Positions 3,879 to 11,140 of a stretch of 64,000 bases of DNA are shown here, in pieces; the first letter of the stretch is position 1; every line of letters begins with the position of its first letter. This stretch comes from Fragilaria crotonensis. Taxonomy: Eukaryota > Bacillariophyta > Fragilariophyceae > Fragilariales > Fragilariaceae. The notes beneath the pieces were generated by a model that ran no database searches, had not been told where the DNA came from, and worked only from the letters and a program-made list of their open reading frames with translations. A program made the translations under genes and the position numbers. The DNA lies in the NCBI GenBank assembly GCA_022925895.1, contig JAKSYS010000016.1, positions 62,001 to 126,000 of the forward strand, in the 5' to 3' direction.

Positions 3879-5318
3879 TTGATTATTTATACAGTAGTAG
3901 TAGTGCCGTTTCTCGTTTGGATGTTTCACTTTTTGTGGTCCGAATAAGTCTCGACACGGTCAAGGAGTCCCACGGATAAACCCGTGGGTGGTGGAGGACA
4001 TTGTGACCTCCATCCACAGACACCGCATTTCCATGTAAGTAATAGCTTCTCCGAACTCAGTGCAGAGTTGACCATCAGCTGACTGCAGGAAGTGCGTTTT
4101 AAAGGAACTTGATTAACATCGGTATTGCCCATGTTCGGTCTGCCGACTTCTTTGTGGAGTCTGAAGTACGTTTTTTCAACAGAACGGCACCTGGCCTTAT
4201 TGCCCTCTATGTGAAGGCATTCATGTAGTTGTCACAAATTCTAGAAGTGAAAGGGCATCGTAATGCCTAAAATGACAATTCTACCAGTAGGTAATCAGGA
4301 GGTTCCGGAAATTTCGGCTCAATTTATGAACATAGAGAGAGAGTTTTCGCTTGACATCTGTGGACGCTGCAAGGCTGCAATTTCCCGAAGTAGTACAGTA
4401 TACAGTAGTGTACTGGAGTATCATTTGACACTCGTTCCAGTAGTACTCGTACGTGGTCGTACTTGAGACTTGATACTACTCGAAAAGGTCCTCAGTATGA
4501 ACATACTTGAGACTTGAGCCTATTCGAAAAGGTCCTCATTTTACGAAAGCAACAACCAATTTATTTGAAGAATTAACTACGATTCCTTTGGAAATCCTCT
4601 AGATGATGTGTTATCACAATAGAATACGTCGTCGTTTCTGCGATTGCACAACTCCGTTATCTTCCACATGATTTCTAACTCACTAAACGGGTTGGTCCAT
4701 TGTGCTTTATTGAACTTCTAATGTTAGACCTATGAGGATGGAGACACAAATACACTATAAAACTGCTATTGCATCAAACTCATCGCCACACGCCAGCAGC
4801 TCATCATGAATGCTGCTGAGCTTGCTCCTCATGAGCCACAGTCGCTGTGATAGCGAATGAGCAGCTGCATATCTCTGACAAGATTGAAGCACTTCCACCA
4901 TCCAACAAATTCTGTACAAGGTGCACAAGCAATGGATTGTTCAGTACAAGATACTGATGTTTGAACCTGCATGTCAGTCTTGTGCACAAGTTGCGGCAAA
5001 AGATTGAGAAGTCACATGCCACATGCAGAATCATCACCATCATGAGACTCCATGTCAACCTGTTGGTGAGCTAGTACATTTCAAGGCTTCGTACATTCTT
5101 TCTTGATGAATTTCATCGACATTCCATGGCAAGGTCAAGGTGCAACCCATTATAAGCTGTCTGATTATAAACCAAAAACTTGCACAATGATCACAAGCTA
5201 CTGGTACCTGGTACTGTACAAACTGGCAACTGGCGTGTAGGAGAATGACACGACTCATTTCTCGGTATTTTGTACCCCCCAAATGTACATCAAAAATGTC
5301 CGAAGGGTACAGGTCACC
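3879..5318. other. Intergenic, with a short tandem repeat
   Basis: About 1.4 kb up to the transposon end. No convincing gene. A cluster of GTAC palindromes lies near 4390-4450 and a two-copy tandem repeat at 4461-4538. Confidence 0.5.
4461..4538. repeat. Two-copy tandem repeat, 44-bp period
   Basis: ACTTGAGACTTGA at 4461 and ACTTGAGACTTGAG at 4505 each lead to TCGAAAAGGTCCTCA. The two 34-bp copies differ at only a few positions. Confidence 0.8.
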
Positions 5319-5355
5319 CACTAGAGACCATTCGGGCTCTGAACTTTGGCCCGAT
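5319..5355 (+). repeat. Left terminal inverted repeat of the CACTA-type transposon
   Basis: 37 bp, the exact reverse complement of 10785-10821. The flanking bases differ (ACC on the left), so the repeat proper starts at CACTA. Confidence 0.9.
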
Positions 5356-5727
5356 CCCGCCGGCTTCTCGTTATACCACCGTTACCACTGTTAATTTTGT
5401 ATGATGAAAAATCAAGTCATTATGACAGAGTAAATAACGGTTTTTGAGCTCAGATGATGTACGTTTTCTCCACCAATTCCTTGAACTTCGATGAAAGTGT
5501 GCACAATGATGCTCATTGAGTGGTGCTGCATCCTGATGTGCACGGACGTTTCGAAGTTCGGCATTTTGGTGAAGTCGATTTGTGGTCGAGAATGGACCTT
5601 CCACGTGGACGAAAGATATTCTTGTACTAATTCCCATGTACGCCCTACAGGAGTTTTTTCACAGCTGCGATGCGAGACCCCTTATTCATAGAACGAATCG
5701 CATGATTGCAGCACTCGTATCTTGCAG

Positions 5728-7836
5728 ATGAGCAACATGCAGCGGAATGACCTCTACAAACGAACCAGGAGTTGCCCAGTGACATGTCTCACGTTTGGAA
5801 AAGAAAGGAAGACAGAGTATCCTGATTACTTCTTTTGCCATGGGTGTGATCTGTTAGAAGATGCCGTGGAAAGAAACACCAAACAAGTACATCGCCAGAT
5901 GAAAAAGTACATGTGCACTGGTGGTCACATTTATGTGAGCAACCCTACCACACTCAAGAAAAAGTATCGACAGAAGCGAAACGTAAAGCCAGCACCAACA
6001 GGCAGAAAAGATTCTGCACGTGGCAATTCCGACAAAAATGATGAAGTGAAATCTCCGAGCAAAAGTCCTACCAAGAAAAAGCCTCGACGACAGCAAGATT
6101 CTCTCTTGCATTTTGACATCTGCAATTATTCCGAACAAGAGGACGATGATGTCAGTGATGATATGCCAGATTGTGCTGATCCCCGAAGACTTTTTGCTTG
6201 TAGTAGTACTACCGCCGACGAAAAAGAAATACAAGAAAAGCGGTCACAATTGAGGAGGTTGAACACGACACCCTCAACACCGATGGTGACTGGTTGTGTC
6301 ACACCAGCAGCCATCTATGAAAATGGCTTTTCTAACGAACGGAACCTCTTGGAACAAATCAACATGCTTGAAGCGACAAATGAGTTGCTGAATAAGCAAC
6401 TCAAGGACCTCGATGACAGCCATGACCAACTTGCACTGACCGTGGAGACTCTTACTGCTGAATTGGAACAACTCAAATTTCAACAAAGGTGTGACCCCGT
6501 GAGCCCTGGGTGTGGCAATGACAATGATGGAAAAGTTCGGGAGAGCTCTGCACGAAGAAAACGTCGTGTGCAAATAGAGAATGCCAAACTTTCACATGAG
6601 CTTTCTATTCGAATTCATGACTTCATAACAAGTTCCAGTCTTTCAGATCGACGCAAGTTTCCAACTAGTCGGCTTGCAAAGATTGTGATTGATAGCGTCC
6701 TTTCCTTTGAGTGGAGTCATTCGGAAATCGCCAACATTTCTTCAACAATGCAAGCAGCACCACCAGGAGAGAATAGTGACTCTTTGGTATTACTCCTGTC
6801 GACATTTTTGAATGTGAAGATGAAACGATACCGTCACAAGAGCAAGGCAGCACTGCTCGTAGATTGCATGTGGGACAACAATTTCCTTGACGGAGAAGTG
6901 AAAGCATGTATGATTAATAGAGTTCGTTCGTACCTTCGCAGCCATGTCTTCTCGCCATGGAAGATCCTAAGAGCTATGGATATTGCTGGATTTAATTTAA
7001 GTCTTGCAGGTATTGAAGTGTTGCGAGGTGTTGATGTCCAGGGAAAGTATGTGCGAAGTGTACTGACAAGCAAATCAACAATATTGCGAGTGGCTAGAAA
7101 GCTTGAAGCAGCTGCCGACAGGTTTTGCCCCTTTACGATGATTGGGCGAATGTATCAAGACAACGAAGGACAGCAAGGTACTAGTGTTGATAATGATGAT
7201 ACGTTTGGAGAAGGCTTTGAATTTGATTCGATCAAAGTCACTCATACACTATTTGAGGCATTTGGTTTGCAGAACATCGCCAAGCAGCGGCCAGTTGAGT
7301 TAGGACTTACGTCCGATGGGGCTCAACTCACAAACACAATATCACATGTTGCTGCAGGATTAAAGTTAAATGACATGGCGATGTGCAATCCAGTAACCAA
7401 GCGCCCACTTTTACTTCACGAACCTGACTCTTTGGTACAGAGTCGCAATCTCTGCTTTCCACTCCGAATTGTTATTGCAAAGGACAGCAAGAAAACTCTC
7501 GACGGTTTTCGGCCACTGTACAACTTGTTTAATTCTGGTGAGGTGTCTCGAGCCTTGCGATGTCACGCCTTCAAAATGTCCTTCCCTGGAGACATGAAAC
7601 TGCAGTGGGGAGCACTTGACGACGGTGGCGCAGCAAAGGTGAAAGAAAAGTTTTGTTACATATGTCCCTGTCGCTCGTCAACTCTGCATGTACCACAAGA
7701 TAAGTCGCAATGTGCATTGTGTAAGAACAAGGCACCACCAACAAATGGCGAGGTGGAAGAACGGCATTGTTATCACTATCCATTTCTCATGGATCCCAAT
7801 GTTCGACAAGAGCTAGTGGACGAGCTTGAGTTTTGA
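5728..7836 (+). CDS. Transposon protein, N-terminal part (diatom orphan family)
   Basis: 702 residues from the ATG at 5728; the preceding in-frame codons include only a TTG. The N-terminus has a possible zinc-binding site (C16, C20, C37, C40 in SCPVTC and FCHGC) followed by a Lys/Arg-rich, probably disordered stretch. Around residues 200-255 there is a Leu-rich predicted coiled coil (LLEQINMLEATNELL...). The C-terminal half carries SDGAQLT, VIAKDSKKT and ALDDGGAAKVKEKFCYICPC, then further CxxC and HCYH pairs. I know this pattern, including the D-G/A-LT, KDSK and GGA-K-FC-C motifs, from very many unannotated diatom proteins. The frame stops at TGA 7834-7836 and the family continues in the next frame (7857-9068). 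It lies inside the inverted repeats, so it is probably the transposase or part of it. A DDE triad cannot be assigned by eye. Confidence 0.7.
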   Translation: MSNMQRNDLYKRTRSCPVTCLTFGKERKTEYPDYFFCHGCDLLEDAVERNTKQVHRQMKKYMCTGGHIYVSNPTTLKKKYRQKRNVKPAPTGRKDSARGNSDKNDEVKSPSKSPTKKKPRRQQDSLLHFDICNYSEQEDDDVSDDMPDCADPRRLFACSSTTADEKEIQEKRSQLRRLNTTPSTPMVTGCVTPAAIYENGFSNERNLLEQINMLEATNELLNKQLKDLDDSHDQLALTVETLTAELEQLKFQQRCDPVSPGCGNDNDGKVRESSARRKRRVQIENAKLSHELSIRIHDFITSSSLSDRRKFPTSRLAKIVIDSVLSFEWSHSEIANISSTMQAAPPGENSDSLVLLLSTFLNVKMKRYRHKSKAALLVDCMWDNNFLDGEVKACMINRVRSYLRSHVFSPWKILRAMDIAGFNLSLAGIEVLRGVDVQGKYVRSVLTSKSTILRVARKLEAAADRFCPFTMIGRMYQDNEGQQGTSVDNDDTFGEGFEFDSIKVTHTLFEAFGLQNIAKQRPVELGLTSDGAQLTNTISHVAAGLKLNDMAMCNPVTKRPLLLHEPDSLVQSRNLCFPLRIVIAKDSKKTLDGFRPLYNLFNSGEVSRALRCHAFKMSFPGDMKLQWGALDDGGAAKVKEKFCYICPCRSSTLHVPQDKSQCALCKNKAPPTNGEVEERHCYHYPFLMDPNVRQELVDELEF

Positions 7837-7856
7837 CTTCTCTTCGAGATGTCATC

Positions 7857-9068
7857 ATGAATGATGCCAACAATAACAATCAGCAAAAGATGTATGTGCG
7901 TCAGTCAGGCCAGGTGATGATTGATGGCGATACCATGGATATAGACAATCAACCGAGTGAACCAAACATGAGGGCGCTTTGGTCACGTCACATTACTGAT
8001 GAACTTGCAAGTCGCGGAATGGAAGTCATGGGAACTCTTAGTGAACGGCAACAAAGACTCCGAGAGCAGCTTGTAAATGAACAACGAGCTCACCACATAG
8101 CTCGCATGCTCTCTGAAAGCGAACCCAAGGACCAGGCAATGTATCTCGTACTTCAGGCTGTTGTTTGCATTCTTCACTTGGAGAATCGAGTTGGTCTCAA
8201 ATCTATCGAGAGCATTCTTCGTTCAGGATTATCGAATGCAAGAAAAGGGATTTTGGAGTGGACTGTTGCAAGCGGTGCAAAAAGGCGACAGGAAGAGTAC
8301 ATTGGTTGCATCACAACGATCATTCAAACTCAAATTCTTGGTTCTTTGATGGCACCTTCGCAGTGGCGGTTTCCCCTGACAGAGGAAGGGAATGTTGGCA
8401 CCCTATCAATGGACAACAATCGAACTCGGTCAGTCATGAATTCAATCGAGCTATTGATTGAAGTCTCATTTCCTAACTCAGATGACAACAAACGGCGCTT
8501 GCTTCGATGCTTTCCAAGATACAGAGCTGCTATGATTATTCTCCGGAAAGATACCGATGCTACACTGGATGAGATCAGTACATTTCAGGATCACATCGAT
8601 GCCTGGTTTCAAGATTGGGTAACAGTTTACGGGAGAGAAGGATGTACAAACTACACCCACATGCTCTCGTCATCGCATGTTATGAGGTACATGCAAGAGT
8701 GGAAGTGTTTGCATCGTTTTTCACAGCAGGGATGGGAAGCACTAAACGCATTGATTAAAGCCTATTTTTTTCGTCGGACTAATCGAGGTGGCCTATCAAA
8801 GAATGCAACAAAGAAGAGTAAGCTCTTGGGTATTGCTCGCTGGTTGCAGCGTCGAATCATGTGGTACAGCGGGAATGGTGATACTCTTTTACAGCAGAGG
8901 ACGAGGAGGTTCTTGACGATGAAGACGATAGTTCCTACAATGACAACGCTAACGAGGAGATTGATGACGACAGTAGCATTAGCACCACAGGCAGCGATGT
9001 TGATGAGAGCTTTGAAATGGGATACATCACAAGTGACGGGGAATAAAGACACTTCTACGAGCGATTAA
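7857..9068 (+). CDS. Transposon protein, C-terminal part (diatom orphan family)
   Basis: 403 residues from the ATG at 7857; the frame is open from 7830 and overlaps the end of the previous frame by 7 bases in -1 phase. It contains family hallmarks I recall: AVVCILHLENRVGLK, a GLSNARK block, TNYTHMLSSSHVMRYMQEWK, FSQQGWEALNALIKAYFFRR, TNRGG and ARWLQRRIMW. In relatives these blocks follow the cysteine-rich part of the preceding protein in one chain, so the two frames are probably one product joined by an intron, by -1 frameshifting at the TTTT run, or separated by a mutation. The GWE...K...RRT block is reminiscent of the region downstream of plant CACTA transposases, but that likeness is inference. 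The C-terminus ends 14 bp from the convergent gene. Confidence 0.65.
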   Translation: MNDANNNNQQKMYVRQSGQVMIDGDTMDIDNQPSEPNMRALWSRHITDELASRGMEVMGTLSERQQRLREQLVNEQRAHHIARMLSESEPKDQAMYLVLQAVVCILHLENRVGLKSIESILRSGLSNARKGILEWTVASGAKRRQEEYIGCITTIIQTQILGSLMAPSQWRFPLTEEGNVGTLSMDNNRTRSVMNSIELLIEVSFPNSDDNKRRLLRCFPRYRAAMIILRKDTDATLDEISTFQDHIDAWFQDWVTVYGREGCTNYTHMLSSSHVMRYMQEWKCLHRFSQQGWEALNALIKAYFFRRTNRGGLSKNATKKSKLLGIARWLQRRIMWYSGNGDTLLQQRTRRFLTMKTIVPTMTTLTRRLMTTVALAPQAAMLMRALKWDTSQVTGNKDTSTSD

Positions 9069-9081
9069 AAATTTGATAGTC

Positions 9082-10584
9082 CTATTCTAGCATTTCTTGA
9101 ATTTTCTGATAAACGTGTTCCATGTCGGTGTAAACAACAACCTCCTCGGATTCATTAACTTTGGTTGTCATCCGAGTATTATGGATCATGTAAACCTTCT
9201 TGGCGTGTATCTCAGTCCTTCGGACTTCTTGAACTCGCATCACATATGTATGGTCGATAAACTCCATTCCTGCAACAATTTTAGTACTTAACCTCTCATC
9301 GGACTCAATTTCGCCGGACACGACACAAGCTCCAATGCTGGGATGCGTTTGAGTACCTCCAACAGAAACACCGACACCAGCAAGTGATTGCATCGACTCA
9401 TTTGTCACAATTAGTTTTCGATATCGCAAAGAAATCAACAGTGTGCCATCCGATGAATCATACGACAGGTCAATCCCATCTTCTGTAATTCCAAACCGTT
9501 GAAAGGGACACAGAGAAGTATCGCTTGTATCATCGTCTGCAGTTACATTGTCCTCTTTGGAAGGACACAAGACAACATTTAGAACGTCATTCAAGCTCAA
9601 GAGAACACGGCCATCACTGTACTTGGGTCGCGTCTTGCGTACCCCGAAGCCAGCCATCCTTCCAAAGAGCGACCGAAACACTTCCAATTTCTTACTTGTG
9701 TCAAAACGTAGCACCTCAAGGTATCCAGTATGCCGACAAGAATGATACACAAGACCCCATGAAAGCAGGATTTGGGGTCGGGTGTATTTGACAGCTGCAA
9801 TACTGTCAATACCTTTGGCCTTCATCGTGTTCTTGATGAAAAACCAAGAGCAACTTGGTAGCTGCAATTTCGAGTTCCTCATTGCAAAGTCACCCTGAGA
9901 TTGAGCTACACGGCAAAGAATCCGTTGAATTTCTTGTCTTATATGCCGGATAGAATTGAAGATAAGCTCACAGTGATCGACAGACCAAACATCGTAGAAA
10001 TTCTTGATTTTACCAGGAAACGGCGGACATGTGTGTCGTGGGATGATTGAGATGTTACCGCTTTCTGTGATGCGATACGTTGCAACATAAAAGTTAGACA
10101 TGCCTTGACAATCATCATAGGCATCATCCTCCGTAGCAACAAATGCTAGCCCGACAACTAGATATGATGGTATCCAGTTAAACTTGTCGAGCTGGACAAT
10201 TCTTTGATATCCATCCAACCGACAAGGATCATCTCGCACTTGGAAATTGCTCCCACTCAAAAATTGACTGTCCTTGAAGATGTTGACCTTTGCGAACTGA
10301 ACTAGCTTTTCATCTTTAAATTGATCTGGTGGTTCATGACGGAGTAGTTCATAGCGTTCATAACCACCAGGAATCAAATCTTTAGATGCAACAATTTCAA
10401 TCACCCGACCGACATGATATGGTGACACCTCACCCACCAAGCTGGTGTATCTTATGAAGGATCCTGCAGTTACAGAGATCTTCAGAGAAGGAATGTATAG
10501 AGTCAAATTGAATGATGTAGGAATCAGCGATTCCCACGTTGTTGAACACGAGCCATCATTGTCATCATCACCATCAGCAGTCAT
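9082..10584 (-). CDS. Accessory protein of the CACTA-type transposon, unknown
   Basis: 500 residues, taking the first ATG at 10584; the frame extends upstream only to a GTG. It is convergent with the 403-residue gene, with 13 bp between the stops, and its 5' end lies about 200 bp inside the right inverted repeat. I do not recognise the family. Residues ~30-110 (SFIRYTSLVGEVSPYHVGRV, then an ELLRHEP and FKDSQFL region) are faintly like a BAH or chromatin-reader fold, all-beta with conserved aromatics. The rest is a globular alpha/beta protein with a Glu/Lys-rich C-terminus (YQKIQEMLE). CACTA elements often encode a second DNA-binding protein beside the transposase, and that role is possible here. 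The frame is intact over its whole length. Confidence 0.6.
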   Translation of the reverse strand: MTADGDDDNDGSCSTTWESLIPTSFNLTLYIPSLKISVTAGSFIRYTSLVGEVSPYHVGRVIEIVASKDLIPGGYERYELLRHEPPDQFKDEKLVQFAKVNIFKDSQFLSGSNFQVRDDPCRLDGYQRIVQLDKFNWIPSYLVVGLAFVATEDDAYDDCQGMSNFYVATYRITESGNISIIPRHTCPPFPGKIKNFYDVWSVDHCELIFNSIRHIRQEIQRILCRVAQSQGDFAMRNSKLQLPSCSWFFIKNTMKAKGIDSIAAVKYTRPQILLSWGLVYHSCRHTGYLEVLRFDTSKKLEVFRSLFGRMAGFGVRKTRPKYSDGRVLLSLNDVLNVVLCPSKEDNVTADDDTSDTSLCPFQRFGITEDGIDLSYDSSDGTLLISLRYRKLIVTNESMQSLAGVGVSVGGTQTHPSIGACVVSGEIESDERLSTKIVAGMEFIDHTYVMRVQEVRRTEIHAKKVYMIHNTRMTTKVNESEEVVVYTDMEHVYQKIQEMLE

Positions 10585-10784
10585 CGCGCAGCACACTTGT
10601 AGCTAGAGCCCTTGCACTAGAAAGGATTTCTGGAGCACAAGGGTACTCAAATGCGCGCGTAAAAATACAGAGCACGGCCAGCGACTCTCCTAAACGATTT
10701 TTTTTTATGTCTTGCTTTGTGGCTGAAGTTTGCATTCCATGGAAGGCGTTAAATTTTGGGCCGACATTGAGCTCATAACCAGAA

Positions 10785-10821
10785 ATCGGGCCAAAGTTCA
10801 GAGCCCGAATGGTCTCTAGTG
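10785..10821 (-). repeat. Right terminal inverted repeat of the CACTA-type transposon
   Basis: 37 bp, exact inverted copy of 5319-5355. A further GGGCCGA motif lies about 25 bp inside, as a possible subterminal binding repeat. Confidence 0.9.
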
Positions 10822-11140
10822 CGAGGGAAAAAAACAATGCACAAACCAGTGAAAAACTTGAAAACAAAGATTTAAACTCATCACTTGATCATTGAAGTTA
10901 TACATGAAAAAATAGGATTCGGCAACGAAGAATTCAAATGACCTGACGCTTCAGCGAAATGCCAGAATTCGCTCTGCGAAAGGATCAAAAAGGGGCTCAC
11001 TTTTTAGAGTCGAGTGGGTCAAAAATATGCATCGATTTTTGGCAAAGGGTACAGGAATCCGTGGAGAGTCGTGGGGTACAAAATTCCGAGAAATACGGTT
11101 GGCGTACGTACAGCTGGAAAAAGATTCTGGATCTTTGGGC

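Follow-up and report, generated by a model that had tools for sequence, protein, structure and literature searches.

A two-gene diatom transposon with 1-bp target site duplications and a probable CACTA/Transib/RAG1-type transposase

Genes, ends, and copies of the element

The element described here lies at positions 5319-10821 of the window, by which we mean the whole 64,000-nucleotide stretch of Fragilaria crotonensis DNA that was analyzed. It is bracketed by perfect 37-bp terminal inverted repeats (TIRs), as the first-pass annotation of this DNA had reported, and the two plus-strand reading frames named there are present and contain the motifs that it quoted (Table 1). These frames, however, are parts of a single frameshifted transposase gene, and a convergent gene on the other strand had been missed.

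Table 1. Positions of the element, its genes, and its insertion site in the window
Feature	Position	Strand	Remarks
Host repeat, inverted ends	5257-5289 and 11062-11094		repeat copy at L135:180-520
TSD, left copy (c)	5318		1 bp; flank identity and empty sites
Left TIR	5319-5355	+	starts CACTAGAGACCATTCGG; 37 nt, 100% complementary to right arm; multicopy
Transposase gene, first part	5722-7836	+	704-aa frame; N-terminal Cys motif, coiled coil, candidate D (SDGA), D (GDMKLQW), C-x2-C
SDGAQL	7312-7329	+	candidate first catalytic D
GDMKLQW	7588-7608	+	candidate second catalytic D
CYICPC	7654-7671	+	C-x2-C
Transposase gene, second part	7833-9068	+	411-aa frame; H-x5-H, candidate catalytic E (SQQGWEALN)
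THMLSSSH	8655-8678	+	H-x5-H
SQQGWEALN	8721-8747	+	candidate catalytic E; aligned to RAG1 E962 block
Second (accessory) gene	9082-10596	-	504 aa; convergent with transposase; no known domain
Right TIR	10785-10821	-	37 nt, 100% complementary to left arm
TSD, right copy (c)	10822		1 bp; flank identity and empty sites

The reading frame of the window transposase breaks near 7833. In copies on contigs C120, C273, and C150, a single open frame of 1162, 1157, and 1143 aa, respectively, spans both parts (single frames of 1143-1162 aa, loci L014, L017, and L021), so the two plus-strand frames are one frameshifted gene, and their interpretation as two genes is ruled out. Comparison with L009 (contig C421), a near-identical copy that matches the window copy at 99-100% in most aligned pieces, reveals damage at two points of the window copy: L009 passes the break point in one frame, and the last ∼58 aa of the window's second frame are in a different frame from L009. 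L009 is broken too, elsewhere.

In the Pfam scan, residues 28-76 of the second frame weakly matched SDE2_2C (E 0.0017; 18.6 bits against a cut-off of 26.6). By eye this segment is SAP-like, and it may be a portion of the insertion domain that binds DNA.

An accessory gene had also been proposed for the element; a conserved second gene does exist, on the minus strand and not in the frame then meant. Its relatives are present in the other full copies, and the second proteins of the two families described below are 26-27% identical. Two 2.9-kb elements with CAATAG ends (C76:102397-105297 and C38:80020-82916) match the second gene, and no transposase match at either is among the matches listed, one scan having scored 44 of 108 candidates.

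Values of dN/dS, obtained with a Nei-Gojobori script, suggest purifying selection on both genes, most pairs being saturated. The L014-L017 pair, the sole transposase pair with dS below 1, has a dN/dS of 0.18. Near saturation (dS 1.4 to 6.3), the value is 0.08 for the transposase pair C361-C690 and 0.18, 0.19, 0.12, 0.16, and 0.32 for five second-gene pairs; the remaining pairs are saturated.

The TIR pair is not unique. Across the 62.1-Mb genome, a 21-nt end pattern with at most 3 mismatches allowed has 33 forward and 39 reverse matches, and the reversed pattern, used as a control, has 0 forward and 0 reverse matches, so the end sequence of the window element is not a chance occurrence. For the silicon transporter family PF03842, this genome gives 19 matches, of which 18 are above the cut-off (best E 4e-193), as would be expected of a diatom. 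Most paired copies of the window family, which we call family A, are either full length, at ∼5.5-5.9 kb, or shorter, at 1.2-1.7 kb or 320 bp. Family A ends start CACTAGAGACCA or CACTACAGACCA and have the form CACTA..TAGTG.

At some ends the initial C of CACTA is missing, or there are small tandem duplications or fillers (such as CACTAGTAGAG, CACTATGATAGAG, and CACTAGAGACTAGAG), which are possibly traces of end processing; such ends occur at L011, L013, L015, L016, L020, L022, L026, L027, L031, L036, L037, and L047. One copy with family A ends contains, at L020:3387-5138 on the minus strand, a PIF/Harbinger-type transposase gene (DDE_Tnp_4, E 8.8e-22) that probably belongs to another element nested inside. 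Copia-like polyprotein frames were seen by eye at L019:2529-6605 (contig C235), between family A ends that lie ∼10.1 kb apart (L019 and L037).

A second family was reached through the protein and not through the ends. Searching the genome with the window second frame gave 45 matches, one group of which is 37-41% identical and has open frames of up to 1127 aa. The four loci of this group that were opened (C361, C690, C38, and C1) all have the convergent two-gene layout, and in the three where both ends were readable the element starts CAATAGCGACCA, an end similar to that of family A. The transposases of this group, family B, are 29-30% identical to those of family A. Family B ends read CAATA, and both families have 5'-CA..TG-3' termini. 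CAATAG ends are also found on elements of ∼220 bp and ∼1.9 kb. A 19-nt CAATAG-end pattern was found at 51 forward and 40 reverse places, compared with 16 and 20 for its control, and individual weak matches to this pattern are therefore not trusted.

TIRs at both ends, many copies, and short copies with identical ends are the marks of a cut-and-paste transposon, and relatives of the window proteins are flanked by TIRs elsewhere in the same genome. These features, together with the empty sites described below, bear out the proposal that the orphan proteins belong to a mobile element. The motifs of these proteins are presumably shared by many unannotated diatom proteins; if so, those orphan proteins would gain a home as transposon genes.

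Target site duplications and empty insertion sites

Target duplications were measured from the flanks of 36 tabulated loci, all in one genome (17 in family A and 19 in family B, including the window and three long family B copies, and leaving out L028, L029, and the three pairs of L025). Exactly one identical base flanks the element in 32 of these loci (14 of 17 in family A, 18 of 19 in family B; binomial p about 1e-15 at 0.25), and at none of the 36 do 2-8 bases match. The loci that lack the 1-bp match are L023, L030, L032, and L080; outside this table, one pair in L025 also lacks it. The duplicated base is C at 11 sites, A at 8, T at 7, and G at 6, with no clear target-site base preference among the 32.

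Counts of paired ends single out the same register. In 14 of the 18 family A pairs whose two ends both read CACTA, the same base lies on either side, and other registers reach at most 10 of 18. This count includes L028 and L029, apparently the same insertion in two contigs, and leaves out five pairs that lack CACTA at one end (L011, L016, L020, L022, and L027) as well as five further loci that were skipped. Among family B pairs, 20 of 21 match in one base (other registers, at most 9 of 21), and so do 15 of the 16 that are distinct by their shared flanks. The flanks of L090 and L091 (contig C346) place a family B element inside a microsatellite of the TACTGCTA type; taking out a single base brings back, by eye, the period of the repeat, which provides an internal check on the 1-bp duplication.

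Empty sites were sought in the genome with the joined flanks of 29 of these 36 loci, and 40 stretches for 12 loci were compared. The flanks overlap by 1 bp at six of these loci and by 0 bp at one, and five gave no clean reading. A ∼340-bp MITE-like repeat from another family hosts the window element, and the repeat's own 31-bp inverted ends account for a second, imperfect inverted repeat around the element. Copies of this host repeat without the insertion number 14 among those listed; all 14 were compared, and 12 show a 1-bp overlap of the flanks. At C361, 6 of 7 empty copies have a 1-bp overlap, the odd copy having a longer indel at the joint, and C38, L010, L106, and L084 each have it in 1 of 1, the left flank of L084 being diverged. 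The overlap is 0 bp in both empty sites of L023. Overlaps of 8-9 bp at L021 (5 of 5), 6 bp at L013 (3 of 3) and L017 (1 of 1), and 3 bp at L088 (2 of 2) are not clean readings because the flanks of these loci carry insertions or have diverged. Two partial empty-site matches for L103 stop short of the right flank.

The empty sites of L013 suggest 5 extra bases on the right, and the flanks of L077 have a split match on C310. In the two odd copies of the window element's host repeat, L143 and L144 (contigs C257 and C485), three extra bases lie exactly at the insertion point (GTCACC-GG-CGAGG versus GTCACC-GAGG); an earlier insertion may have left them as excision footprints, or they could be plain variation.

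The flanks and empty sites also bear on how the element should be classified. If it were an ordinary CACTA (EnSpm) element whose 3-bp target duplication had decayed or been read in the wrong register, the CACTA ends of family A would be expected, and the catalytic layout described below, which resembles that of the wider clade, would fit. The empty sites, however, establish a 1-bp duplication for both families, and a 2- or 3-bp match occurs at 0 of 36 loci even though the empty sites of several loci are 96-100% identical; in addition, the ends of family B are CAATA, and none of the eight transposases analyzed matches Transposase_21 or DUF4218. We consider this explanation highly improbable, and CACTA proper was rejected on the 1-bp empty sites and the lack of any 3-bp match.

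It is also scarcely credible that the element is a DDE transposon with blunt, Spy-like (0-bp) joining that carries one extra base at its end. This would accommodate the 0-bp overlap at both empty sites of L023 and the few ends in which the first C is missing or a small tandem duplication occurs, but a carried base would match the target in about 1 of 4 cases. The match seen in 32 of 36 loci, with all four bases used, led us to reject 0-bp joining in favor of insertion with a 1-bp duplication.

Candidate catalytic residues and relationships of the transposase

Seven residues are invariant in the eight transposases compared, which represent both families: D530, D622, C643, C646, H984, H990, and E1010 (L021 numbering). 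Their spacings are also constant in all eight, with 21 residues from the second D to the first C, 3 between the cysteines, and 26 and 20 from the histidines to E. The corresponding residues of mouse RAG1 are D600, D708, C727, C730, H937, H942, and E962, with spacings of 19, 3, 25, and 20 (PMC4914335). According to a second report, a C(2)C and an H(3-4)H motif between the second D and E are common to EnSpm/CACTA, Mirage, Chapaev, Transib, Plavaka, ESTA, Lanisha, and RAG1, and the CMCT clade (CACTA, Mirage, Chapaev, Transib, and RAG1) has mostly CA..TG ends and reported target duplications of 2-5 bp, a range and not a strict definition (PMC12730594). All eight proteins have C(2)C, but their histidines are H(5)H, in contrast to the H(3-4)H of the clade.

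Local hhalign of the core against a RAG1 fragment aligned the block TNY-H...H...G-E..N with H, H, and E in register (pairwise E 0.029), and 0 of 100 shuffles scored as high. The C block alone gave the same result against RAG1 (0 of 100 shuffles as high), and pairwise hmmsearch of this block gave an E of 0.0002, calculated for a one-sequence target. When realignment was used, 45 of 200 shuffles reached the hhalign score of the C block, a chance-level result, and the first-D block matched RAG1 no better than its shuffles, 8 of 100 of which scored as high.

Database searches returned little. No Pfam family exceeded its cut-off in the window proteins, for which the SDE2_2C match was the best, or in the eight transposases. 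A comparison with the Transposase_21 (PF02992) and DUF4218 profiles had been suggested, and neither matched the window proteins at E 1 or the eight proteins at E 10; a genome search with PF02992 was also empty, yet its 14 controls were likewise without a match. Searches of the PDB with profiles of the eight proteins and of the C block listed no RAG1 or Transib chain at E 10 and nothing below E 0.09, and the matches of the full-length profile fell mainly in the coiled-coil region. A single-sequence AlphaFold model of window positions 6709-7833 had a mean pLDDT of 32.6, too low for a fold to be read from it. Pattern scans for relatives in IMG/VR and GTDB gave 58 and 32 pattern matches, none of which was confirmed.

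Based on these results, homology of the transposase to the CACTA/Transib/RAG1 clade is likely but unproven. It is less probable, though worth weighing, that this is a transposon with a 1-bp target duplication from a DDE superfamily unrelated to CACTA, Transib, and RAG1, in which the zinc-motif and E-block match reflects convergence or chance. The absence of Pfam matches above the cut-off and of a relevant PDB match, the H(5)H spacing, the chance-level first-D block, and a target duplication outside the 2-5 bp given for the clade (PMC12730594) speak for this alternative. We nevertheless regard it as unlikely because seven candidate functional residues recur near the RAG1 spacing in two families that are 29-30% identical, and the C block aligns in register with RAG1 at a score that 0 of 100 shuffles reached.

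The best reading of the data is therefore an undescribed lineage beside the CACTA/Transib/RAG1 transposases and not CACTA proper. The first-pass annotation had suggested a divergent CACTA branch, perhaps an undescribed lineage. The lineage does look undescribed. The first suggestion is borne out in part: the CACTA ends of family A agree with it, but the CAATA ends of family B, a target duplication of 1 bp instead of 3, and the missing Transposase_21/DUF4218 match do not. The residue layout points to the wider CACTA/Transib/RAG1 group. The element is not filed as CACTA because the 3-bp duplication and Transposase_21 tests failed. It may best be called a CACTA/Transib-type transposon variant, possibly of superfamily rank. 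Among the papers listed in our survey of the literature on diatom elements, none concerned this element, and no report of a 1-bp duplication was found in the open-access literature, a scope that omits Repbase reports and subscription papers and so leaves absence unproven.

Proposed insertion mechanism and comparison with known transposons

We are fairly confident that the window contains a copy, with a broken transposase, of a two-gene cut-and-paste lineage that inserts with a 1-bp stagger and whose transposase is probably a DDE enzyme of the CACTA/Transib/RAG1 type. With somewhat more reserve, we lean toward a fuller proposal, in which this is an undescribed, superfamily-level two-gene lineage in diatoms, sister to CACTA/Transib/RAG1, that makes its joints 1 bp apart and needs its conserved partner protein.

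The length of a target duplication follows from how far apart the two target phosphates lie in the strand-transfer complex. Elements of family A begin 5'-CACTAG or CACTAC and those of family B CAATAG, with nGACCA coming next. The mechanism that we propose centers on the ∼1000-1160-aa protein, which is probably a DDE transposase of the CACTA/Transib/RAG1 type. Its putative D-D-E triad would lie in a presumed RNase H fold with a large insertion, and the C-x2-C just past the second D and the H-x5-H just before E may bind zinc. By analogy with established DDE chemistry, the transposase would excise the element at its CA..TG ends and attach each 3' end to a target phosphate, the two phosphates being on opposite strands and one base pair apart; filling of the gaps would then yield the 1-bp duplication. 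The convergent ∼500-aa protein probably co-acts, for example by binding chromatin, the target, or the ends. Movement in trans would account for the short copies, which have the same ends, and the lineage may be active at present.

The single-base duplication that insertions of this lineage typically carry is shorter than the range reported for the nearest known relatives, and a 1-bp spacing of the joints, if correct, would be the shortest duplication possible. Should the transposase indeed be a neighbor of RAG1/Transib and CACTA, staggers from 1 to 5 bp would all arise within a single active-site architecture, and what sets the stagger would become directly testable.

Among known systems, EnSpm/CACTA elements resemble this lineage in having CACTA ends (family A), a large transposase with a further gene, and non-autonomous copies. 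They differ in their 3-bp duplication; in the lineage described here, the duplication is 1 bp, family B has CAATA ends, no Transposase_21 match was obtained, and the second gene is convergent and has no Pfam match. ESTA, Plavaka, and Lanisha, divergent CMCT lineages that could be compared by description only, share the C(2)C and H..H motifs, but the duplications of the clade in which they are placed are given as 2-5 bp (TA in ESTA) (PMC12730594). The very short target footprint is also like that of Spy elements, from which this lineage differs in that a duplication is present. Spy elements have a PHIS-type transposase and make no target duplication at all. The Transib/RAG1 systems, in which the duplication is 5 bp, differ in that length; the proteins described here have H(5)H and no significant database match to them, and the present lineage has a second gene with no known domain. 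They are like this lineage in their CA..TG ends and in the D, D, and E residues, with a C-x2-C after the second D and paired histidines before E at nearly the RAG1 spacing, and RAG1 itself shares a weak in-register match across the E block.
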